Source: Ceratodon purpureus (lineage: Eukaryota; Streptophyta; Bryopsida; Pseudoditrichales; Ditrichaceae). From it: a DNA stretch of 64,000 nucleotides. Of this stretch, positions 1 through 60,808 are shown in pieces. The position numbers were made by a program, and so were the translations under genes. The notes under the pieces were generated by a model. That model searched no databases. It saw only the letters and a program-made list of their open reading frames with translations, and was not told where the DNA came from. How positions within the stretch are numbered: position 1 is the first letter of the stretch; each line of letters begins with the position of its first letter. The DNA lies in assembly GCA_014871385.1 (NCBI GenBank), contig CM026428.1:14910476-14974475 (forward strand), read 5' to 3'.

Positions 1-1653
1 CCCCAGGCTGTATGACAGCACCGAAGACACCAACTCTGCGGCGCCATGGATATGGGTACTTGAGTCATTCACGAATTGTTGTGACTCAGTCATTCATGAT
101 TAATTGCTGTGACAACTAACAAGTCATCTACAAATTGTTATCACAAGCCGTTCACTTGCGAGCATTGAGGGCATGAGTATGAAACAGACACAAAACAATT
201 TCTTTTCCATCCACACTTTTGGTAACACAAGTCGTTCAGGAATCTTAGGTGGATAAAGGATCATTCCTTATTCTGGTTAATGGAACATTGCTATCAGAAG
301 TTGGGTATTGACGTGACAATAATCCAGCATTGTTGCATGAATTGTGCGATAGTTCCTGTAGCAACAGTTTTCTTCTTAATTTTTATAAGGTGGTAGAAGG
401 TAATATGCTTCAGTGACTTCGAAACTTCTGATGTAGTGATAAAACATTCTTGGTGGTTGAAGTGGCATTTCAGAGAAGAAAGCCGATGAAGCTTGCTGTG
501 CAGTAACTTGTGCTATGATCCGAAGTACAATTCTTTGAAGAAGTGCGCTGCAGTTTTTTGACCTTTTAAATGTTAGTTGATATCATCTTTATGTAGTAGT
601 ATGCTGTTCATACTTCAAGTAATACTTACTTTTTTCCATTGGAAAAAAAATGGAGGCATACAGAGGCCTTTCAGTGAAGCAGAGTAGGTGAAATCATGCC
701 AAAAAATGGCAACTGTATTTTACAAAAAGTTGTCAATTTTTAGCAACTTTACACCTCAATATAAAAGATTCTATCATAATGACCCATTCATAAAATTTAG
801 TCACCTAGCTGACCACCACGTAAGCACCTTCTTTCATCTACAAGAAATCATTGAAATGATTTCAATTTCTTTTGGAGGGCTCCTTTCAGACTCCATATTT
901 TTCAATGGCACAACGAAGAATCACAAAGTTGCCTGTCACCTTGCAGTCGACGGCCGAGAGAGAAAAGAAAAATCAAGATGGGTGTGCAGCAGTTGAAACT
1001 GACTAACTTAGCACCACTTCAGTATTTAAATCCAATTCACTTTGAAGTGAAATAAGCCAACTTGTTACATTTTATTGAACAGGCGAGAAACACTGCTGTT
1101 GGCTGTGTAAGAGCTGGATCCGGATTCTCAGTATTGTACAATGGCTGATTCTTCATGACAAAGTGGGATCAATCCCCAAGAGATTGTATCCTGTTTTAAA
1201 ATTAATCAAGATAAATAGCAGCTGCTAGAAAATCGGGCATGGCTGTTTTTGTTTTTTGTATTTTGTTTTTCTTTTGTTTTTTTTTTAATTTTTTTTTAAA
1301 ATTTTTTTTTTTGGAGATTTTTTATCTTTTTAAAAAAAGTTTTTACACAAGCAAAGGTATGGCCATTTCGAAGTGAGCCTTTGGTATGTCTCGAAGTAAG
1401 AAATTAAATTCCTTCTCTCTGGTCTTCTGTCAGCAAAGCTGATTTTATTTCACTACTGTTTTATTAGCCTACATTAAAAATCAGGAATAAAAAGTTATAA
1501 CTCTAATCTTTTTAGATCAAATAAAAAAATATTATCTCAACCACACGTACCTACATTCTAAAAATTCACCTCTTAAAATTTATTCAAAAAATAGTGTTAT
1601 TTTGGAAAATGTTCCAAAAACATATACATTATCAATGGTGCAACAATATACTA
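1..1653. other. Intergenic, no gene recognised
   Basis: Only short open frames without recognisable motifs are present. A 102-codon frame at 688-996 has no family signature and AT-rich codon use unlike the real exons downstream. A T-rich tract lies at about 1244-1330. The start of the window could be the end of a gene lying to the left, but I see no coding signal there. Confidence 0.5.
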
Positions 1654-1792
1654 AAGGTCATATTCATTAAAATGGCCAATCCTGATTATATTGGCCGCAC
1701 AAATAGTGTGAATTCAGTTCATTTTCTCTCCTTATTTGAATAGTGTGGCGGCCAATATAATCGGGAGTGGCCATTTTAATGAATATGCCCTT
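1654..1792. mobile_element. Small fold-back MITE, 139 bp, with 4-bp target duplication
   Basis: The two ends are inverted copies of each other over about 45 bp with a few mismatches. The left end begins AAGGTCATATTCATTAAAAT and the right end, read on the other strand, begins AAGGGCATATTCATTAAAAT. The flanks are ACTA at 1650-1653 and ACTA at 1793-1796, which reads as a 4-bp target duplication. Only about 45 bp separates the arms, so the element would fold into a long hairpin. It has no coding capacity. Superfamily not assigned. Confidence 0.8.
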
Positions 1793-2823
1793 ACTACTTC
1801 TCTTATGCAAATTGCAATCAAGCTTTAAAATTTTCTAAAAAACAAAATTCACACCATTGATAAAAGTTACACTTCCAAAACATAAATATACAATGCATAT
1901 GTATTCTCCAAAACACTAGATGTTCACATGAAACCATAAATATCCAATGCATATTTGTTTCCCACGACACTCAATACTCACAAAAATCATTCCAAATTTC
2001 CTTTGAAAAAGATCCAAAAGGTTAAAATATGACAATGCATGCATTCGCAATGCATACACCCACCACGTGTTCACCAACCTTTCCTTAAAGGTTTACACAA
2101 CCACTCTTATATAAAAGATTTGAAAGCTTGCGTCATTGCAAGGGAACCCTTCCATTTATCAAGTGCAGGACAAGGAAATCCATGGTCACCTATCGCTGAC
2201 GGACAGGGTCGCCCAGGCTCATAAATTTGCTGTGACGGACGCTTTGTTTTCAGTGACAGTCTCCAAGTGGAAAACGTTACAATGGACCACTGCCTCCATC
2301 CTTGTCATGTGTCATGAAGTACTACATCACAACCTGGGCTCACTTCTACTGCACCTTGCATCTCATGATCAGGCATATTGTTGTGAAGAAAATTGTTGTT
2401 TTAGGACGACACATTCGAATATCAAATTGTGGTCTTAGTTTTATGGTATTAGCCCACCTCATGGTTTTACTGTTTTAGACTAGCTTTGCCTACTTAGACT
2501 TGAGTTTGAATCGATTCGGGAGTTTTTGTCTGTATGTATAGGTTGCATATATTAGGCATGATGCTAGTGATTTATGATATGGGCATGTGTAGGTTGTAAT
2601 TGTTTTTGGATGGATCGGAGCGGAATTAGTGTGTCAAGGGAGAGTTTCGGAGAGGATGTGATTGGCTACATTTGAGCATTTAATTCTGTCGCTAATTATT
2701 ATGCCTGTTTGAAATTCAGGAAATGGTGTGAGATCCAGATTCATCTCTTGCTAACAGCTCCCGGGATTTCTCTCAAGCCAGGAGTAAGGAGGGAGGTACT
2801 CACTTACTTCGACGTTTGTTGTA

Positions 2824-5501
2824 ATGGCACCCAGGACAGATGATTCGAGCTCACACAAGATGGGGAGTATTCTTGTGAAATTGAAGTCGAACGATCGGAA
2901 CGTCATGAGCTTACTCACCTTAGTTGGGAAGCCGGCAGGTGCCATCCTTCCTGATTTCTTGTCCAGAAAGTACGAAGTGAACATGAAGTACGTGAAGCTG
3001 GGGTATCACTACCTCATTACCCACGCCATGAAGCTGATGCTCATTCCCCTGTTCGTCATTGCACTGGCGGAGACCTGGTTCAGAATTGACAGGGGTGACA
3101 TACTGCAGCTCTGGGAGAATCTTCGCTTCAACCTCGTAAGTTCCATAACCACATGATGATGATCACCACCAGTTTGAAATACTTCTGATGTTGGAACATG
3201 GTTAAGATTGAAAAATTCTTCAAAATTTGAGCTAGGGATCAGCGAGCTTTGGAGCTGCATTGCAAAATTTCTGCTTCGGTGGCATGAGTTTTTTCGGAAT
3301 GCTAAGTTGTGGTTGTACAGGTGAGCGCAATAGTGTGCTCGGGGTTGATAGTCTTCGGCGCCACTATGTACATAACGGGGCGTCCACGACCAGTCTACCT
3401 CGTGGATTTCGCATGCTACAAACCCGAAGAAGAGAGAAAATGCTCCATAGAGAAATTCATGTACTGCACAACGACAACTGGATCCTTCACCGAAGAAAAT
3501 TTGACATTCCAAAGAAAAATCTATGCCCGCTCAGGACTAGGAGACGCCACCTACTTCCCCATCTCTGTCATCAACGAGAAAGGAATGAGGGGCCCGATCA
3601 ACATGCATCAAGCGCGAACGGAAGCCGAGCAGGTCATGTTCGGCGCCCTCGACGAGCTCTTCGAGAAAACAAGCCTCAAGCCCAAAGACATCGGCATCCT
3701 CGTTGTAAACTGCAGCCTCTTCAACCCCACACCCTCTCTGGCGTCCATGATCATCAATCACTACAAAATGCGAGGCAACATCAAAAGCGTCAACCTCGGT
3801 GGTATGGGGTGCAGCGCGGGCCTAATCTCCATCGACCTCGCACGTGATCTCCTTCAGGTAATACCAAATCATTAATTTCCTCCCACAACTTTCAATCCCG
3901 ATGTATCTTCACTTAATCCTAATCCTAAACCCAAATTCCAGGTGCATCGAAACACATACGCCGTGGTCGTGAGCACGGAGAACATAACCTTAAACTGGTA
4001 CCTAGGCAACGAGAAATCCATGCTGCTCCCCAACTGCATCTTCCGCATGGGCGGCGCGGCGATACTGCTCTCGAACAGGGGACGCGAGCGGTGGCGGTCG
4101 AAGTACGAGCTCATGCACACGGTGCGCACACACAAAGGCGCAGATGACAACTGCTACGGCTGCGTCTACCAACGCGAGGACGAGAAGGGGATCGTGGGCG
4201 TGGCGCTTTCCAAAGACCTGATGGCTGTTGCAGGCGACGCGCTCAAAACGAACATCACCACGCTGGGCCCTCTCATTCTGCCCCTCTCCGAACAGCTCCT
4301 GTTCTTCGCCAACCTCATCATGAGGAGGTTCCTGCAGTGGAAGGTGAAGGTTTACATCCCCGACTTCAAGCTCGCATGCGAGCATTTTTGTATCCATGCT
4401 GGTGGGAGAGCTGTGCTGGACGAAATCGAGAAGAATTTGGACCTCTCCGAGTGGCATATGGAGCCGTCGCGCATGACTCTTCACAGGTAATATCATTCTG
4501 CCTGAGTATCATTTAAATTATCACCGAGGAAAATAATTCTCAAATCCCAACTCGATCTCTATTCTCCAATGTTGAACTCTCTCCTCACCCAAAGACAGAT
4601 CCAGACTATTGGAAAATTATTGGCTTGCTGTACAAGATTGGGGTGTCAGAGTTCGTGATACAACTCACTGTAATGTAGCAAAATTCTTTATCGTAACTCT
4701 TTAGCATAACTCTACTTGTGGAGGAGAGCTACAAGGTGAGTTATCATGCCAACTCTTTAATTAGGTGAAATGGGCGAAATTCTCTCCCCTCTCTCCATAA
4801 CACATACTATCACACCCCTTAATATTATATACACATGATAACTTGATACATTCATATGGCCGGTAGCAATTTGACTGCTTACGTTGCAAGTGGACTCAAG
4901 ATTTTGGACTATTGACTACCAAAAAAGTGTCAAATTTCTCTTGGATGGCATTTATCCAATCCCTAAAAAATATCATAAAATTCAATGGTTGCTAGTACCC
5001 TGTCACGGTACACAAGAATATTGTATGCCCAGATATAACTCGATGCAATCACACAGTCGGTAGAAATTTAAAAGTGGAGAGACTGATGGCATCAGACCTT
5101 AAAGGTTTCTTCACATTGAAAATCAAGATACTGTACTTTGCAGCATGAGGCTGATGACATGTTGTTAGTTAGTACTCGTTCGCAATGAAATAAAATTTTC
5201 ATTTGTATCCAATTTGTTTTTAATTTAAAGGAGAGAGTACTGAGCTCACAACTGGGGTGCTTGTGACGTCCGCAGGTTTGGCAACACTTCGAGCAGCTCC
5301 CCGTGGTACGAGCTGGCATACATGGAGGCCAAGGAGCGGGTGAAACGCGGCGACCGCGTGTGGCAGATTGCATTTGGGTCGGGGTTCAAGTGCAACAGCG
5401 CGGTGTGGCGCGCGCTGCGGACTGTGAAGCGGCCGTCGAGGAGCCCATGGCTGGACTGCATCGATCAGTACCCTGTTCGCAATCCCAACCGAAGTTTGTG
5501 A
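2824..5501 (+). CDS. KCS: 3-ketoacyl-CoA synthase (fatty acid elongase condensing enzyme)
   Basis: Four exons: 2824-3135, 3321-3857, 3942-4486 and 5276-5501, joining in frame to 539 residues. The enzyme condenses malonyl-CoA with long-chain acyl-CoA in the ER, the first step of very-long-chain fatty acid elongation for wax, cutin and sphingolipids. Two hydrophobic segments precede the catalytic part (around residues 60-80 and 105-125), as expected for plant KCS. The FAE1/CUT1-type domain follows with the active-site Cys in [10 protein letters not shown] (about residue 268), a His in CIHAGGRAV (about 435) and an Asn in RFGNTSSSS (about 468). These match the Cys-His-Asn triad of the family. The N-terminus is somewhat longer than in FAE1. 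The ATG at 2824 is the first one before the conserved hydrophobic region. The next gene on the same strand is an O-methyltransferase. Confidence 0.95.
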
Positions 5502-37848: not shown

Positions 37849-38048
37849 GTGTCTTGGATGCTCGATGTTATGAATCAAAAATTGAATTACTGAGGAAGCA
37901 TGGATTGAAGGCTCAAGTTGAAAGAGATGTTTGCAGGCCCTTGTGAGGAGGCGTGTTATGTAAACGTGATATTCTCTCTTATATGTTAGCGGATGCCTCT
38001 CATGCGTTAGCTATATGAGATCTCCTCATTAAGGCTCGAATATTAGCA

Positions 38049-40959
38049 ATGGGGTGCAAAGTGTCCAAAAGCGGACCAGAGCCTTGTGCAAGCAAAATCC
38101 TGGGTTGTAACAAACTCGCACGAAGCTACTCGTCTCCTATTCAGTTGGCAGATGTACAAAATTCCTTACAGAACCCCAAATGTGAGAGTTTTCACTTAGT
38201 ATCTCTTACATCAAGTACCTATGGTTCTTTATCTACGCCGCCTTTGAAAGAAGAACAGGGCCGAGCTGCCAATGATAATCTGGAGCATGGGAGTTTTGAA
38301 AGAATCAAGAATGATAGAAACATACATGCTGTAACAGTTCCTTATTCTTGGTCTCATGAAGCCGATCCAGGAATGATTGCTCCTAGTCAAAATGCAAAGA
38401 TTGAGGGTGTGAATCCTCGAAATGCCGCAGATTACAAGGAGGAGCAAACCGTGAATATGTGGGAGCTTATGGAGAGCCTTGAAGATAAGAAAGCAGCACT
38501 TCAGATGTTACGAGGCTTGATGGATAAATCAAGGGATGGAAAGTCATCACCCCGCATGTCCACGACAATTCACACAGTTGAAGAACTGGATAGTGTTTTG
38601 GATGTTCGAAGATCTTTTCCAACAAACCATCGCATTCAAAGGAGATTTTCGATGGAGCCAGTGATACCTGTCCGTGACTCGCACAAGTTCGAATCGGATT
38701 CCAAGAAGATGCGAGAAACACCTTTCTCCATGCAGCTGAATCATCTTTCTTTGACAATGCAGAAGAATCAAGAAGCGAAAGAGTTTGATTCTGTGAGAAA
38801 GAAGGATTTTAGTTGGAGCCAAGAACTCAATTCTACAGAGAGGAGCAGTCTTTCCCACCGACAGGACTTGGATTCCATAAGGAGAAGTAATCTGACCCGG
38901 AGTCAGGAGTTTGACACTCTCAGGAGGTCTATTCTTTCTCGGGATCAGGGAGTTGATTTCACGAGGAGGAATAATCTCTCCCAGAGTCAGGAGTTTGTTA
39001 GACCTCCTTTAGCTAAGCCCAAGGAAGCTGTTGCACCTCGTCAAAGTCTTTCTGGAGTTCCTACAGCTGTTTGCATTAGTGATTATGAGAGGAAGGTTGC
39101 TACATCTCAACCAGACCCTGTGTTAAGAAGCCCTATGTTAATAGGATTGAGCGGACAGGAGAGGCTGAGAGTTCGCCCTGGTCAACAGTCACCTATGTCA
39201 AGTTTGGCTAGCCCAAAACTTTCTGGTTCACAACAAACTACCTTCTCTTTAGATGAAGCACCCGTTTTAGACTCCTATACTACTGTAAACCGGAGGAGAT
39301 CTGCATCTGAAGCTGTTACACCAGCAACTAGTCGGAGAAGTGCAGAGGTTTCTTCTTCAAGAGATAGGAACTCTAAAGATACGAGTGTCCATGTGGCTAT
39401 GCAACCTCCGATGTCAAAGTATCTTAATGTGTCAAGGCCGATTGATGATACTCAAGGTGTAAATACAAAGACAAACTACAATGTCTCCAAGATTCCTCCA
39501 CATGGTTTTGTTGCTGCTAGCAATGACAAGACGAATGTGATTGTACCTCAAGAATCTACCCAAGATGTAGCAAACCTCTCAACCGTAAAGCACTCTGGTC
39601 GGAGTTCTTCTGCCTCAAAGGAATCTACCTTTTCCAAATCTTCCTCGTCAACGGCTTGGAGTTCTTCTGCATCAAAAGAGTCTACTTCTTCCACAACTTC
39701 CTCGTCGACTGCTACATCGTCTGCACCTGAGAAGACACGGTCTCGAGGTATGCTCAATGACTCTTGAGAAGGGATCATCTTGATGTATTTAGCCTTTCCA
39801 ATGCCTGATTCACCATAATATTGAGTTTCGTTTCATAGTTCTTCAGGTATGCCAATTTATGTTTTTTGTTTCGCTGTCATCTTCTACACTTTACAGCAAT
39901 GTCCCACTCTTTTAGTATCATATTGCCACAAACACTTAATGTTTTTTTCCCGATACAGGAGGGCGAGAAAGTGAAATGGGTGATTCTATAAGTTCAGGTT
40001 ACGAGGTCGTCCCCAATACTGAATTATTAGATCAAGAAGGTCGAAGACCGAGTGGGTCTTTTCCAACGAAGCAACCAAGTCAGAGTGCGACTGTTTTATT
40101 AAGTGATACAAATTGTGGCAAAAACACAGTCTGGTCAGCGGACTTAGACCGTCCTAATAGTTTACCACTTGATCCAGAATTGCTAGCTTCATTCGAAGAA
40201 GCCCTGGAGCTGTTTTGCGCAGATGACTGGTGTACGGTTCGACTTGGAGAAAGTGAACCACCTGCGACTTCTGGAAGCAACTCAGAGTTGGACAGGCCAT
40301 CTTGGCAGAGTGAGACAACAAATCCTCGCAGTAATCTTGCCGGGGAATCCAAGTTAAACCGATGTGAGATCTTGGAAGACCATGTAGAGAAGTCCGTTTC
40401 TCAGCCAGGAGTTCTGAAGAAAGCAGCGTCCTCGAAGATTGTGCCCTTAGAAATTGGAGAGCAGAGAAAGAACTCAGATCCCCTGGAAAATTTTGAGAAG
40501 AAGTGCCCTCCAGGCGGTGAAGAGCGATGTGTTCTTTACACTACAAGCTTGCGTGGCATACGGAAAACTTTTGATGACTGCAGCCAGACAAGAGCCATCC
40601 TTCAAAGTTCAAATGTTCTGATTGACGAAAGGGATATCGCAATGCACGCAGAATTTCGTCAAGAAATGATATCTCTAGCTGGAAAGCCAGCTTCTGTCCC
40701 AAGGTTGTTTATTAAAGGAAGGCATATCGGAGGCGGGGAAGAAGTTTGTCAATTACACGAGAAAGGAATACTGAGTAAGCTGCTCCAGGGTCTACCCAGG
40801 CAAGTTTCGCAGACCGTTTGTGATGGTTGCGGTGGAGTGAGATTTATCCCATGCAGAACTTGTTCTGGAAGTTGTAAGGTGATCACACAAGAAGGTGGTG
40901 TTACTTGCTGCACTGTGTGTAACGAAAATGGTCTTAGCAGATGCCCCGTTTGCCTATGA
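38049..40959 (+). CDS. Glutaredoxin-domain protein with Cys-rich C-terminus, long disordered N-terminal region
   Basis: Two exons, 38049-39747 and 39959-40959, join in frame to 899 residues. The start MGCKVSKS is a fit for N-myristoylation with a nearby palmitoylatable Cys, so plasma membrane attachment is likely. Residues up to about 750 are Ser-rich and charged, probably disordered, with five tandem 14-residue units at about 245-314. From about residue 756 comes a glutaredoxin-like fold (VLYTTSLRGIRKTFDDC, then DERDIAMHAEF, SVPRLFIKGRHIGGGEEV), followed by four C-x2-C pairs ending CPVCL. This is the plant family typified by Arabidopsis At5g39865-like proteins, in which the classic active-site C-x2-C is absent. 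The length is well above the 400-600 usual for the family because of the N-terminal extension. Biochemical role unknown. Confidence 0.9.
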
Positions 40960-41216
40960 TCATCACTTAGAACTTACGGCTTGTGCTGTACCGCCATGTA
41001 CAAAAATTGTATAGTATCTCAAAGTTTTTCGTAGAGCTGTGGTTCTTCTTCATCATTAGTGTGTTCTATGTATGAATCAAGGATGAGAACTTAGTTACAG
41101 CACAATTGCTATTCACTCAGTAGCAGACGGCTCAGTAGTCATCAAATCTAACATGTTTTAATAAGACATATTTTATGATCCACTCGACATTCCTTGATGG
41201 ATTCGGTAGTGTGTTA

Positions 41217-41475
41217 CTCCCTCTGTTTCCAAAAGAAACCATGGTTTCCTTTTCGGGCCAGGATTAAGCACAGTGATGTCGCCTTTAATTTTGCTTATTT
41301 TAATTGAAAGTGTCATTTGGCTTAACACGGATTTCAAGTGCCATAATGCCATTTGGCTTAACACAGTTTTCAATATGTATATTGATGGTTGACTTCCTGG
41401 TAATAATGAAACAATGGTTTCTTTGTGAAACAAAGACTTTGTGGAAACCATGGTTTCTTTTGGAAACAGAAGGAG
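41217..41475. mobile_element. Stowaway-like MITE, 259 bp
   Basis: Ends are CTCCCTCTGTTTCCAAAAGA and the inverse of CTCCTTCTGTTTCCAAAAGA, flanked by TA at 41215-41216 and 41476-41477. The CTCCCT(C/T)TGTTTC terminus and TA duplication are the Stowaway (Tc1/mariner) signature. The inverted repeat continues through AAACCATGGTTTC, a palindrome present at both ends. It sits about 260 bp past the stop of the glutaredoxin-like gene. Confidence 0.88.
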
Positions 41476-41477
41476 TA

Positions 41478-42628: not shown

Positions 42629-43915
42629 TTACTGCTGTACTGTACACATGTTCTCAATTTCGAACTTCGGTTTCTTGCGGAAAGATTTGCCTCGAGTAAC
42701 CAGACCTTCAGCTGGAGAATGCCCGGAAACGATGGCATGCTTGGTAATTGGGTTCGTCTTCAGCTGAAGAGAGAACTGGTGGCGAGTGTCCCACACCAAG
42801 TCACGGAGAGCACCCAATGCGACATCGTAACCACGCATGACATTCTTGAAAGTGTGGTTCAGCACTCTGGCCACCCAGACCTTGAACAGAAGCTCCTCCC
42901 AGTCGTCATCACCCTTCTCGAAATGGTCTAGGAACTTGAGATATGCACTCGTCCAGGCATCCTCATCGGCGAAGCTCCAGCATGGCCACTCGACAGCGTT
43001 GAGGAGGCCCTTGACGAGAGCAGAGTCGAAGTGCTGGTGGAGAAGCTCCTGCTGCCGGGGAGTCCAGTTGCTTTTGATGAGCTTCAGAGTTTTCTCGATG
43101 TCGTAACCGACTTTCTGCTTGATTAGATCTGGGACTGGCCTAGCAGGTTCGATGCAGTGCCCTCCGGCGTCTTCGCTGGGGAGGGTCTCCTTCTTCAGAG
43201 ATTGTACAGCTGAGAAACACTCCACTAGCATGGTGCGGAGGTCGCGAAGGCCGCCGTAGAGGGCGTGGACCTTACCCTCTGGGATGTACACCTCTGCGAG
43301 GCGTAGACCTGCCTGGGCGCTCACGAACGTGTAGAGAGTGTCGATTCCCCAGTCGCTCTGTGAGCGGACGCGCTGGTCGCCGTACAGAACCTCAGCTGCT
43401 CTCCGTGTGAGGAGAAGCTCCCCGCCCAGGGGTTGTTCGATGAAGGGGAGGGTGGAGTTGGGCCATAGCATGGCGAACCCTAGTTTGGTTACGAGCCATG
43501 TGATCATGGCGTCGGTGCTAGAGCGCGGGAAGTAGTGGCGGACGACGTCATAGTCGAGGTCGGCCTGCTTCTCGGCCTTGCTGATCCACTCGCCTGAGAA
43601 GGAGACGATGTCAGCATCGTAGAAGTGGATGCGTGGGAAGTCTTTCTCCAGGAAGAACGAGAGGGCCGTGTTCATGCCATCGCCCTTGCCGCCTCGGAGA
43701 GTGACGCCGATGCGGCGCTGGAGGACTAGGAAGATTTCCTTGCCAGTTGCACGTTCGATGCGCGCCTTGGCGTTTTCAATCGCGTGCCAGGTCTCGCCTT
43801 GGCTGTAGCCCACACAGAGAATGGCGGCCACCCGGGGATGCGACGCTGCGCACTCTATATTGCGTACCACCACGGTGACATCTTCTTCCTTGAATGGGAA
43901 GCACACTAAAGACAT
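42629..43915 (-). CDS. MGS: Mannosylglycerate synthase (GT78 retaining glycosyltransferase)
   Basis: A single coding exon of 428 residues. The enzyme transfers mannose from GDP-mannose to D-glycerate in one step, giving the compatible solute mannosylglycerate; some homologues also accept GDP-glucose. The protein aligns from the first residue with the Rhodothermus marinus enzyme (about 397 residues): MSLVCFPFKEE at the start, GGKGDGMNTAL, HFYDADI with the D-A-D metal site at 100-102, RHYFPRSSTDAMITW, EQPLGGELL, SDWGIDTLYTF with D192, and EGKVHALYGGLRDLRTM with H217. Positions of D-A-D, D192 and H217 fall on the same numbers as I recall for the bacterial protein. The C-terminal 30 residues are extra. 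The start ATG is preceded by a splice acceptor (TTTCTTGCAG), so the leader has an intron. Plant homologues are known from Selaginella and moss. Confidence 0.95.
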   Translation of the reverse strand: MSLVCFPFKEEDVTVVVRNIECAASHPRVAAILCVGYSQGETWHAIENAKARIERATGKEIFLVLQRRIGVTLRGGKGDGMNTALSFFLEKDFPRIHFYDADIVSFSGEWISKAEKQADLDYDVVRHYFPRSSTDAMITWLVTKLGFAMLWPNSTLPFIEQPLGGELLLTRRAAEVLYGDQRVRSQSDWGIDTLYTFVSAQAGLRLAEVYIPEGKVHALYGGLRDLRTMLVECFSAVQSLKKETLPSEDAGGHCIEPARPVPDLIKQKVGYDIEKTLKLIKSNWTPRQQELLHQHFDSALVKGLLNAVEWPCWSFADEDAWTSAYLKFLDHFEKGDDDWEELLFKVWVARVLNHTFKNVMRGYDVALGALRDLVWDTRHQFSLQLKTNPITKHAIVSGHSPAEGLVTRGKSFRKKPKFEIENMCTVQQ

Positions 43916-43952
43916 ACTCCGTCACGCCCTTTCTTAAGGGCCTTGCACCACC

Positions 43953-45356
43953 TGCAAGAAACCCAAATAATTCATCAGCTCATGCCTCCAATTAGAGATC
44001 TAAGAACTTCCAAGCGGATTTCATCCTATTCTCTCCTACAAATTAGTTACAACTAATCCCCTGTTCTGCTCTTCTCTTAAAAATTACTGTAGTTAAGAAT
44101 TTTCAGCCTCTCTGCTATTAAAAGTTGTGCAAATATTGCGAGGTTTTGGAGACAGGCAACAGGAACACGGCGTTAGCTTGGATGTTTGCACATCCTGACA
44201 ACATACTCACATCTTCCCCACATACAAAGAAGCCCAGACAGAAGACGGTGCCTCGAATTGGCTTGCAAACACCATTCCCCACACCCGGTCATCATCATGA
44301 TCAGATCTAGATCCCCAGATACTACTAGAATCTTCTCCACAGCTCCTGCGCACAAGTTTCATAACACACCCACGATCAATCGAGACAACGAAACGCATAC
44401 ATTCAGAAGGCACAGGTGTGATATCCTTGCCGACGGCTTGTGAGAGCAGTCTCTCCTGTCGATATTCCACGGGCCCACATGCAGCGTTTCGAGAAGCATC
44501 CACCAACCAGCGATACACATAAAAAAGTACTAATATGAACCAATTATAGTCCGTAAAAACTGCAGCAAATCGGTGTGTAGTATTAAGTCGCCCAATACGA
44601 CATGTCTACATGGTATGGCGATTCTAGAGTGCAGTGAAGGGCGACCTAAGACCAGTGGGAATGGACTAAAAAGCAGTGCAGACGAGAGATATCATGACAA
44701 TATGTCACGGGAAAAAGCTCTAAACTAGATTGTCAAGTGAAAACTCACCCAAACCGTAAAAACAGAGAAAAAAATAGGTCTAACTGTTCACGTAGCAACG
44801 CACTTCACAGAAAAACTGCGCGCCGAGTTATGTGCAGCAGCAGTAATGGCCACAGACAACTTTCAAGAGATTCTGTCAACAAACAGAATGCTGACGCCCT
44901 CTAACACAGAAAAAGGGACAAATTCCATCTAAGATGATTGAGACAGACAATCTGTTACACTTTCACATTTTCTAGAGGAGTCGGCTGTTCCATACGCAAG
45001 AGGAAAATATACAACGAGACACTATAAGAAAAAGCACGACAAACAGCAAACCGACGTGCAAAACAGAGAACTTCACAAACCAGGTGCCTCCAGGCATGGC
45101 AATGCCCAATCCCAAACCAAAGTAGAAACAACCCCACCTCCTTCCACCGAACTTCCCGACTGCTAACCCGTTGAGACTCAACGAAAAAGGAATTAATCCA
45201 CCCACACCCGAGTTAGGCACACGACCACGGTACAATTGTGCAAAGTCCCGACAGCATGAGCGCCAAGGAACCGACTACCGACGGAAAAATTGTACCAAAC
45301 ATCAAGACTGGTAACGTTACAGTTACACCGAGTAAGATCAGCCCCAGGAGACGTAC
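43953..45356 (-). other. Probable 5' UTR intron of mannosylglycerate synthase
   Basis: On the minus strand a donor TTTGAG|GTACGT at 45356 and an acceptor TTTCTTGCAG| ending at about 43953 bracket non-coding sequence. The acceptor lies some 37 bases upstream of the ATG. The donor is the best candidate I see, but others are possible. The leader exon would then run from about 45357 to about 45740, where a TATA-like GCATAAATT precedes it. Confidence 0.4.
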
Positions 45357-45567
45357 CTCAAACCCAAAAGAGAAAAGGAATATTGCTAGGGTGGGTGCAG
45401 GAATTACCCGAGGGAGAGGAAGAACCGGGAGAAGAACCTGAGTGCGTGGAGGTGGTGGTCCAAAGCTGGAGCAAGGATTCACTGCAGCAGTAGTAGTAAT
45501 TCCACCAGATTCAACGACTTGGAAGTGTAGGTGATCAGATGCAGAGCAGCTGAGATGTCACCGAACA

Positions 45568-45609
45568 AGCTTCTAACACAAGCGCTGGCTAGCACTAGTG
45601 TTAGAAGCT
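45568..45609. other. 12-bp inverted repeat in the probable MGS leader
   Basis: AGCTTCTAACAC and GTGTTAGAAGCT are exact inverse copies separated by 18 bp. In the transcript of the minus strand they would form a stable stem within the presumed 5' UTR. Function unknown. Confidence 0.6.
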
Positions 45610-45740
45610 GTTGAAGTAGCGGAGCGTAGTGATCAAGCTAGATCGGGATCGATGAGAGAGCTGTGGGCTGTGAACTGGGAGAGAAGGAAGAGATGGAGGA
45701 GGTGGGAGCTGGAGGTGTGCGAGTGAGTGCAGGGAGACCA

Positions 45741-46118
45741 GAGGGCTTCAATTTATGCAACTTCAGGCGGCTGTGGGCAAATTATTCAATTGTTATAATT
45801 TCACATTATTCCGCATAATTGGCAAGTTCAGCCAGTTTCCCATTGATGTTGCTCCAAACTTGCGTCTAACACGGTCTACCTGGCACTTATATTAGCAATG
45901 TTGCTCCCTCACCATTCGCACTACCACTGCAGTCCCCTCCACAACCGTCCTCACTCCTCGTGCAGGATCCGCCTGCATGGACGGTCAGAACACGGCCGAT
46001 GCAGTTTGGCAGCATGATTCTCTGCACTGCAGCCCATTGCTTGTCTCAGTACCTACCAGGCTGCCAACCCCCATTTTCCTTTTCTTCTTCTGGTTTTTTG
46101 GTATTTCTTTTTCACTTC
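45741..46118. other. Upstream region of mannosylglycerate synthase
   Basis: Probable promoter area of the minus-strand gene. No further gene recognised and no operator-like repeat apparent. Confidence 0.3.
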
Positions 46119-57482: not shown

Positions 57483-60153
57483 TTAAATTGCAGCAGCTAT
57501 CACTGCACCGCCAGTTGCTGCAACTGCACCAACTCCTAGTGCGGCACCCGTGACAACTAATTTGTGACGATCACTTTTTGCAGCTCTGTTTTCTGTTCTG
57601 ACCCTGCCGATAGGACCCTGGATTTGATTTTCGAACGATTCCCATATGGCCTTGAACTGGGCAGGCGTGATGAGGGTGTTGGTGTCGGAGACATTGTGCC
57701 ATGATGACTTTGTGGAGAGCAAACGCAGAGCTTCATCACGCATTTCTTTGGGTTTTTTGGTACCATTCCAATGTCTCAAAATCCTTCCAATAATAGGGCT
57801 CTCCGGGACGACCACCAGATTGCTCAGACAGCCAGACTCGATATCAATGCCATTACTGTGGTCGGCATCGTCAACCTCTTCGTCAGTACTGGAAGCCTGG
57901 AAGTTGTCGCTGTCTGTGTCCTCGTTAGAACTAAAAACTTGTCGGTTGTCACCTTCAATCACTTCATCACTGTCGATCTCTTCATCACTATCAATCTCTT
58001 CGCCCAATCTGACAGCAACCAACGAGCAAAGAAGCTCCAAGGAAGATGATTTCCCTTCACGAGTGATAGCACCGATGTCATGACACTTCGTCGCCCATTG
58101 CCTAGGTGATCTGTCATCTTCAAGCGTTAAAATCTCATTGAACCTCGTCATCATCAAGTCGGGTGCACGGTTGGCTTCAGCTTTGGCCTTCTTCACGACG
58201 CAATATCGTCCATACTTTGCGATTGATTTTTGCATCTCGTTTGTCTCTTCTGGCGTTAGATCATAGCCAAGAAGTTTAGCCTTGAACTGGGTTTGAGCTT
58301 TCGCAACTTCTTCGTTTAAAACACTCCGGATGTCTGACCATATAACAGAAGTAGATTTTGAACTAGATTTCCCCGCCTCAGCTAGGAGATTAGCTGTGCG
58401 TACTCCAAGGCCAGCTTCTAGATTCTTCTCCATCAAAGATTTCACCGCAGCATATCTCGCCTTACGCTTCTCCTGCCAAGAGGCCTCCATATTGCGCAAT
58501 AGCTCCTTCCACTGCGCTGATGAATCCCAATTTGAGAGTGCGACTTTTGCATCTGCGAACATTTAACATTTTAAACTCACCGTCACAAACTCACAATGCA
58601 AATCAATAAACCTCAGCAATCTTCGACTAAGATACAAAAGTTGATGTTTAATACACTCATGTAATCAAATTACAACTCCAATCCTGTAGGATTCTAGGAC
58701 CCTACTTAGACTCACATGCAATCGAAATCTCATGTGCTGATGTTCAATCTACATCATTCTTTCCAAAACTAAAACTTCTGGACAATTCTACAAAATATTA
58801 GATTCCCTCGAACTTCCAGGAACTATCAGAACGCACAAGCAAATATTCTTAATTTAATAAATACACAAGGGACAAAAGTAAAAGGGGAAATCTCCACTAC
58901 GCACCGTCACATCCACGCTCGAATATGTTCAACGCTTCTAGCTTTACATTGGTGTAAAAATTCTTCGTATCACGATTCAACTCAATTTTAGAACACAAGC
59001 TCTTCTCGAACTGGTCCTGGACCTGGGCTTGATGATGTTCAATTTGTTTCAAATAAAAAGGCTTCAAAATACTAAAAATTTCAGAAGTCAAATTTTTTAG
59101 CTTGGATTCCGTGATGTCCTTTCTAAACCAGGTGGTATCCTTACGATACCCGTCCAAGTACCTCTTGACCAGATTATTCACAGTAATCCCGAATCCTTTC
59201 ACAATTCCCGTCTGCGCCCCTTTCGTCACAGATAGCCACTCCTTGTCCTCCTTCAACTCTTGGAGCTTCTCTTTCACAATTTGATCACATCGCACGGTGG
59301 CCACCATGACCGCTTGCGCGGGTAAATCTAGATCCTTGTTCTCTTTGATCTTCTGCCAGATATCCTTGATATATTGCAAGAACGACTCGCCAGGTACGGT
59401 GTCATTGCGATGACCTGCAAGTCCTCGTGGTGCAGTCGAGTTCTGGAATTGCTCCCTGAGCTCCGCAACCTGCTCCTCGAATTCCGGTCTCCTGTGTTCG
59501 AAGTTCGGCAGGGATACCACGACCACAGTGAAGAAGTAGTCCATGGAAGCCTCCTTGTACTCCGGGGGCTTAGGTACCTTTCCCCAAATATCTTTGAGAC
59601 TATCCCGCAGTTGATTCTCCACCGTTACTAGGGGCGTAATCGGCGACTCGTCACGAATCACCAACATGAGCGTTGTCTTTCGCAGGGAACACTTCACGCG
59701 CATCATCACCTCAAAAATAGTCTTGAACAGCGGCAGGTTAGCCGCCTTCTCGCGTCCAATGTCATGGAACCAGATGTTGATCATCAAAACATCGGACACG
59801 ACCAGTGCAAACAGCGCACTCTGCCTCTCAAATACTGTATCATCCTCTCCTCTCTCCGCACCGTCTGTGCCCTCGAGGTCCACAACCAATGTTAACGGCG
59901 TCAGACCCTTCGCCTTCGCCAACCACACTCCCTGCGTAGTCTGCTGCCGCCCTTTTAACGCGTCCATCTCCGCGAAGCTCGTGCTGAACAAGCGATTTAG
60001 CAATGTGCTCTTCCCACTGCTCTGCGGACCTATGATGGCGACCACCACATACGAAGATCCACATCTCTTCAACTGAACAGTCTGAAGAAATCTCTCTAGC
60101 TCTTTGTCTTTGAAAGTACCATCGCTATCCACCAACTGCAGTGTGCAAGCCAT
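57483..60153 (-). CDS. RHD3/Sey1/atlastin-like dynamin-family GTPase, divergent C-terminus
   Basis: Two exons, 60153-58905 and 58552-57483, join in frame to 772 residues. RHD3 proteins fuse ER tubules. GTPase motifs are GPQSSGKST (42-50), QQTTQGVW, DLEGTDGAERGEDDTVFERQ in part, and the RD-type motif VIRDESPITPL. The start follows RHD3 practice (MACTLQLVDSDGTF); an upstream in-frame TTG at 60168 is not needed. The middle helical domain is recognisable up to TLITPAQFKAIWESF. Beyond that, canonical RHD3 has two membrane helices forming the ER hairpin. Here they are missing, and the protein ends in a Gly/Ala-rich tail of about 25 residues (VVTGAALGVGAVAATGGAVI). An acidic Asp/Ser-rich insert with a repeated EEIDSD unit lies at about residues 610-650. 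It may be a soluble or tail-anchored paralogue. Confidence 0.87.
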
Positions 60154-60210
60154 CGCCAAACAACTCAAAAAAAAACTTAGTGACTCTCATATCATGAGTA
60201 TAGACGTGGT

Positions 60211-60700
60211 TCGGCGTTAAATATAAGAGCAGTTGGTAAAGACTAGTCAAACCTCAATAAGTGTTACCTTGATAAGTGTTAAAATACTATATGTGTTTTG
60301 GAGATTTTCGCTCCCTAAAATAGTGAACTACCTCGATAAGTGTTATGTAAAATAATGTCACCTCGATATGTGATGTTCGGCGTTAATTATGAGGGGAATA
60401 TGTGCCACAAACTTGCAGTTGGTAAAGACTAGTCACACCTCAATAAGTGTTACCTCGATAAGTGTTAAAATACTATATGTATTATGGAGATTTTTGCTCC
60501 CTAAAATAGTGTTACCTCGATAAGTGTTATGTAAAATAGTGTCACCTCAATAAGTGATATATAAAATAGTGTTACCTCGATAAGTGTTTTCGTGGTGTTG
60601 TGGTGGTGTTATATAAAATACTACTTCTCTCTTCACCGCTTTGGTGGTATTTTTGCTTCCCACTTGCAACACAGTTCTCGGTATTTGTGTTACCTCGATA
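60211..60700. repeat. Array of CCTCGATAAGTGTTA motifs upstream of the RHD3-like gene
   Basis: About ten copies of CCTC(G/A)ATAAGTGTTA or close variants occur between 60252 and 60706, inside a larger duplication (the phrase CAGTTGGTAAAGACTAGTCA appears at about 60229 and 60416). Such motifs are typical of the ends of pogo/Tigger-type elements. The array begins within 100 bp of the start codon, so it lies in the promoter or leader. Confidence 0.65.
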
Positions 60701-60808
60701 AGTGTTTCGGTGGTGTTTTGGTGGTGTTATATAAAATACTACTTCTCTCTTCACCGCTTTGGTGGTGTTTTTGCTTCCCACTTGCAACACAGTTCTCGGT
60801 ATTTGTGT
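60584..60808. repeat. Two-copy tandem duplication, unit about 118 bp
   Basis: The segment from GTGGTGGTGTTATATAAAAT through CTCGGTATTTGTGT is present twice in tandem with only a few differences. Near-identity indicates a recent duplication. Confidence 0.88.

Follow-up and report, generated by a model that had tools for sequence, protein, structure and literature searches.

Background

Enzymes for both the synthesis and the hydrolysis of mannosylglycerate (MgS and MgH) are reportedly present in Selaginella moellendorffii, in work said to have been published by Nobre et al. in Planta in 2013. The subject of the present report is a gene of the moss Ceratodon purpureus which very probably encodes a mannosylglycerate synthase of family GT78 and which is located in a stretch of 64,000 nucleotides (GenBank assembly GCA_014871385.1, contig CM026428.1, positions 14,910,476 to 14,974,475 of the forward strand), hereafter termed the window. 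Plant members of this family have been in print since 2005, when a Physcomitrella transcript, represented by an expressed sequence tag, was listed with mannosylglycerate synthase as bacterial homologue (PMC1079823), and since 2012, when GT78 was reported from Selaginella, Physcomitrella and Coleochaete (PMC3342304); the Selaginella member also appears in PMC3390603. The occurrence of GT78 in a plant is therefore no surprise and the kind of gene not new. New are a second synthase copy and two hydrolase-type loci of family GH63 in the same Ceratodon genome. No literature joining Ceratodon with mannosylglycerate was found in a search that left subscription journals mostly outside.

Synthase gene product and active site

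On the minus strand, one reading frame of 428 codons runs without interruption from its ATG to its stop codon. The coding region is organized as follows (window coordinates):

42629..43915, minus strand: synthase coding sequence (GT78), 428 amino acids, single exon, based on the open reading frame and on PDB and Pfam matches
43199..43912, minus strand: GT-A catalytic domain, Pfam MGS_GT, residues 2-239, based on the Pfam match
42794..43123, minus strand: C-terminal domain, Pfam MGS_C, residues 265-374, based on the Pfam match
42629..42739, minus strand: C-terminal tail beyond the 2bo4 match, residues 393-428 and stop, without domain match

MGS_GT (PF21969) matched residues 2-239 with 476.7 bits and MGS_C (PF21967) residues 265-374 with 183.8 bits, each at a Pfam cut-off of 27. 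The best PDB match was 2bo4 (E 3.3e-136, residues 1-392), which is the mannosylglycerate synthase of Rhodothermus marinus (PMC2581804), and the three distinct chain sequences among solved structures matching at E <=0.001 are all named mannosylglycerate synthase. With domain matches far beyond chance, membership of the protein in GT78 is confirmed. The NCBIfam scan of the protein yielded zero matches above cut-off, the model NF010496 for GT81 glucosyl-3-phosphoglycerate synthase reached 11.9 bits, far under its cut-off of 262, and the Pfam domain PF09488 of the two-step GT55 route had no match in the protein. Both Pfam domains and the 2bo4 match agree with the initial annotation, which had proposed a GT78 mannosylglycerate synthase in a plant nuclear genome. 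The gene is accordingly read as a nuclear moss GT78 synthase, the product of which would, with high probability as judged from sequence, transfer mannose from GDP-mannose to D-glycerate to give mannosylglycerate.

For the Rhodothermus enzyme the sites E11, K76, D100, D102, L163, W189, D192, H217 and M229 have been named (PMC2581804), and the window protein keeps all nine of them (E11, K77, D100, D102, L163, W189, D192, H217, M229). In the multiple alignment each is invariant in 36 of 36 bacterial rows save L163 (35 of 36); these rows derive from 47 loci, of which one lacked a frame, one fragment was removed and nine were duplicates. The following residues were mapped:

43610..43618, minus strand: D100-A101-D102 metal/nucleotide motif
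43685..43687, minus strand: K77, counterpart of bacterial K76
43340..43342, minus strand: D192, donor-sugar contact (role according to PMC2581804)
43265..43267, minus strand: H217, metal ligand (role according to PMC2581804)

Bacterial K76 corresponds to K77 in the moss protein, because ahead of position 100 the latter has gained one residue and lost another relative to the bacterial enzyme. Conservation of all bacterial catalytic positions, as claimed initially, is thus corroborated by the nine named sites, and identity of the residue numbers with those of Rhodothermus holds for 100-102, 192 and 217 but not for K76.

Second synthase gene

A second GT78 gene (locus L002, 1495-2993) was identified in the same genome at approximately C13:1230342-1231840. 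Its product shares 63.8% identity with the window protein over 392 aligned residues and, with 396 versus 428 amino acids, ends about 30 residues earlier. A single intron, 308 bases long (GTAATT...CTACAG), interrupts its coding sequence. Where the window copy has D-A-D, the C13 copy carries D-S-D, which was also found in one (L099) of the 36 bacterial rows. Position 66 is Q in all bacterial rows (36 of 36, and 41 of 41 with added rows), whereas in the C13 copy the two multiple alignments place K at this site and the pairwise alignment E, Q appearing in none of them. Comparison of the two copies by NG86 gave a nonsynonymous divergence (dN) of 0.29 and a synonymous divergence (dS) of 1.49, the latter near saturation; these values fit long purifying selection.

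Hydrolase-type genes

Two GH63 loci were detected in the genome, on contigs C2 and C7, both with the MGH1-like domain PF22422 above cut-off. Both are multi-exon (L065, 1924-4446, minus strand; L064, about 868-3763, plus strand). The spliced model of the C2 gene has seven exons with GT-AG borders and encodes 521 amino acids; the C7 locus is represented by its domain match only. The best PDB match of the C2 product was 2z07/4wva (same sequence; E 8e-135), the mannosylglycerate hydrolase of Thermus thermophilus (PMC6608630). All active-site residues listed for the latter, i.e. Y36, W40, W42, D43, Y88, Q115, D182 and E419 (PMC6608630), are kept in the C2 product, six by alignment position and D182 and E419 by motif only.

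Matches to the plant hydrolase were obtained in three of 19 GT78-bearing bacterial genomes and were strong only in Rhodothermus (E 3e-91), with E values of 2e-11 and 8e-9 in the other two; the 19 genomes stem from 19 of 20 GT78 loci (L009 omitted) and are titled metagenome bins, so that absence is weak evidence. The GH63 hydrolase of the Rhodothermus genome (L068, C100:13610-14881) is 42% identical to the plant hydrolase. The two-step (GT55) route was rejected as a candidate: PF09488 matched in 0 of 1 plant genome, with matches in one of 14 control genomes.

Distribution, phylogeny and origin

Among bacteria, PF21969 was found above cut-off in 31 of 100 genomes from the phylum to which an Acetothermia genome belongs (19 of these with at least 340 bits), in 6 of 296 sampled genomes in the phylum of Rhodothermus and in 33 of 395 sampled genomes in the class of an Acidimicrobiia genome (G007), compared to none of 14 control genomes. 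Maximum-likelihood trees were calculated with 38 and 43 rows, consisting of the two plant copies and bacterial GT78-like sequences, without algal or other plant GT78 and without an outgroup from another GT family; cyanobacteria were not purposely sampled. In these trees a single clade (100/100) within the GT78 core unites the window and C13 copies and joins an open fork near Gemmatimonadetes, Acidimicrobiia-class, Rhodothermus-group and Bipolaricaulota-group rows. In the approximately unbiased (AU) test, a donor clade with the six Rhodothermus-group rows came nearest to rejection (p-AU 0.071), followed by those with two Acidimicrobiia-class rows (L011 and L012; 0.184), the 19 core Bipolaricaulota-group rows (0.308) and the Gemmatimonadetes row (0.403), none of them being rejected at 0.05. 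Addition of five rows from the class of G007 (the 43-row tree) left the donor unresolved. The highest bacterial family score (434 bits) belongs to the row G770, whose identity to the window protein is only 44.7% and which groups with two outlying rows, L020 and L023, in a part of the tree where long branches come together. In both trees the C13 copy, too, was flagged as a long branch.

Among the sampled rows both plant copies share one origin, and the trees single out neither a donor nor the direction or timing of any early transfer. The ancient transfer put forward initially is partly supported by the single plant clade among bacterial rows; no donor was resolved, and the argument drawn from the missing coding intron fails, because the sister copy on C13 does have a coding intron. 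Intron content varies within the plant GT78 family and by itself says nothing about transfer. Inheritance from an early archaeplastid ancestor, with loss in most lines including seed plants and no later transfer into land plants, has a chance that falls just short of even. It would agree with GT78 in a red alga (partial), Coleochaete, Physcomitrella and Selaginella, with no orthologues reported from higher plants (PMC3342304), and with a deep plant branch that lies outside every sampled bacterial group in the maximum-likelihood trees; against it stand the patchy distribution of GT78, a tree without algal or other plant sequences, and the finding that none of the four bacterial groups was rejected as a partner of the plant rows.

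Predicted function

As a mannosylglycerate synthase, the window enzyme would transfer mannose from GDP-mannose onto D-glycerate in a single, configuration-retaining step to yield 2-O-alpha-mannosylglycerate. D102 and H217 would bind the metal, and D100, K77 and D192 would hold the sugar. The enzyme is probably cytosolic, since its alignment to the bacterial enzyme starts at residue 1 and leaves no room for a targeting peptide. A GH63 hydrolase from another part of the genome would return mannose and glycerate, so that synthase and hydrolase together would allow a compatible solute to be made and broken down in a cycle. The activity of the enzyme, its location, the cycle and the stress role are what we infer. 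As C. purpureus is described as desiccation-tolerant (PMC13120521), the idea of a desiccation role is reasonable, and such a putative role of the synthase is plausible.

Several points weigh against this assignment: sequence alone cannot reveal the donor and acceptor choice of the enzyme; the C2 hydrolase product also matches the mycobacterial hydrolase 6g3n (E 2e-70), so that mannosylglycerate is only its candidate substrate; and a stress role of mannosylglycerate in the moss is only inferred. GT78 enzymes can be donor-promiscuous, and the sugar pockets of MgS and of the glucosyl enzyme GpgS are closely alike (PMC2581804), so that the enzyme might make mainly glucosylglycerate or both solutes. 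We regard this as somewhat unlikely, since the best matches, both domains and the nine named sites follow mannosylglycerate synthase. The genome of a stress-tolerant moss is thus credited with a putative set of synthase and hydrolase for a protective solute of microbial type, which would make a possible contribution of mannosylglycerate to drying tolerance in land plants directly testable.

Gene structure and relation of the two copies

The coding region of the window gene is free of introns, the single open exon 42629-43915 bearing out the initial annotation in this respect. The leader likely contains an intron, which had also been proposed and for which splice-site scores and the distribution of ATGs provide support at the sequence level. 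The upstream features are:

43916..43951, minus strand: proposed second leader exon, 36 nucleotides, ATG-free
43952..45356, minus strand: proposed leader intron, GTACGT...TTGCAG, 1405 nucleotides, 26 ATGs
45357..45750, minus strand: proposed first leader exon, ATG-free, 5' end not fixed
45751-45756: TATA-like ATAAAT beside the proposed first leader exon

With approximate weights for splice-site scoring, the proposed acceptor (first exon base 43951) had the top score within the 2285 upstream bases and the proposed donor (first intron base 45356) the second-best score. All 26 ATGs are contained in the proposed 1405-base intron and none in the flanking leader stretches of 36 and up to 444 nucleotides, the latter having 0 ATGs versus 4.2 expected. 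Capture of a plant promoter, suggested in the same annotation, is conjectural.

The window copy may have arisen by retroposition from a synthase gene with an intron, and have gained its leader and leader intron later. This is considered unlikely: the 308-nucleotide coding intron of the C13 copy is indeed absent from the window copy, and two genes neighbouring the latter have no copies near C13:1.23 Mb among the matches listed, but bacterial GT78 genes are intron-free, so that intron gain in the C13 copy is equally simple, and the case relies on two neighbour markers, no search having been made for a poly(A) trace or target-site repeats. A C8/C13 block duplication was provisionally rejected, as the glutaredoxin-like and RHD3 neighbours have no match near C13:1.23 Mb among those listed, an argument weakened by the use of two markers. 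A complete solute cycle of bacterial type with a division of labour between the copies, the window D-A-D copy making mannosylglycerate, the C13 copy (D-S-D and lacking Q66) using a shifted donor, e.g. glucose, and the hydrolases recycling both products on rewetting, is a speculative scenario to which we assign little probability.

Genomic surroundings

The contig carrying the window comprises 17.97 Mb of a genome of 362.5 Mb in 151 contigs, which has plant telomere repeats (TTTAGGG). Neighbouring frames encode a FAE1-type synthase, an O-methyltransferase, a cytochrome P450, an RHD3/Sey1 GTPase and a glutaredoxin with a GRXCR1-2_C-type C-terminal domain. Contamination of the assembly by bacterial DNA, to which the G+C content of the synthase coding sequence (0.567 versus 0.446-0.490 in three neighbouring frames) might point, is vanishingly improbable and was dropped, given the 17.97 Mb contig with its plant-type neighbours, the second copy of similar G+C content (0.59) with a GT-AG coding intron, and the common plant clade separate from the bacterial rows.

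Between the glutaredoxin-like and the synthase genes, 263 bases (41215-41477) are bounded by 35-nucleotide inverted arms with 97% complementarity; the stretch resembles a short mobile element of non-autonomous type. Directly upstream of the glutaredoxin-like frame lies a frame of 582 amino acids (38019-40959, plus strand) without Pfam match, and the two frames possibly form one gene. Related glutaredoxin-like frames are located on C11, C4 and C6. The RHD3/Sey1 GTPase (57483-60186, minus strand) is spread over two long frames and has relatives on C12 (two), C9 and C40 (a locus with an internal stop), while C4 and C2 gave short matches. The RHD3 gene is preceded by two tandem copies of a 118-base unit (60569-60808, 96% matching), adjoined by repeats of 15 and 30 bases. 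In the window, no tRNA was detected by ARAGORN and no Rfam match reached the gathering score.

Comparison with known systems

The GT78 homologue of Physcomitrella patens resembles the window gene in being a moss relative of the bacterial synthase, a likeness based on description rather than sequence. With Selaginella moellendorffii, as described, C. purpureus shares the presence of synthesis and putative hydrolysis enzymes in one plant genome; it differs by belonging to another lineage and by having a pair of synthase genes along with a pair of hydrolase-type loci. The C2 GH63 protein has the Thermus hydrolase as its best PDB match, from which it is distinguished by about 80 extra N-terminal residues and by a gene model of seven exons. 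The window protein is about 53% identical to five Rhodothermus-like rows. It shares with Rhodothermus marinus MgS (2bo4) both domains, colinearity from residue 1 and the nine named sites, and differs by its length (428 versus 397 residues), the one-residue shift K76/K77 and, at the gene level, its nuclear location and a probable leader intron.
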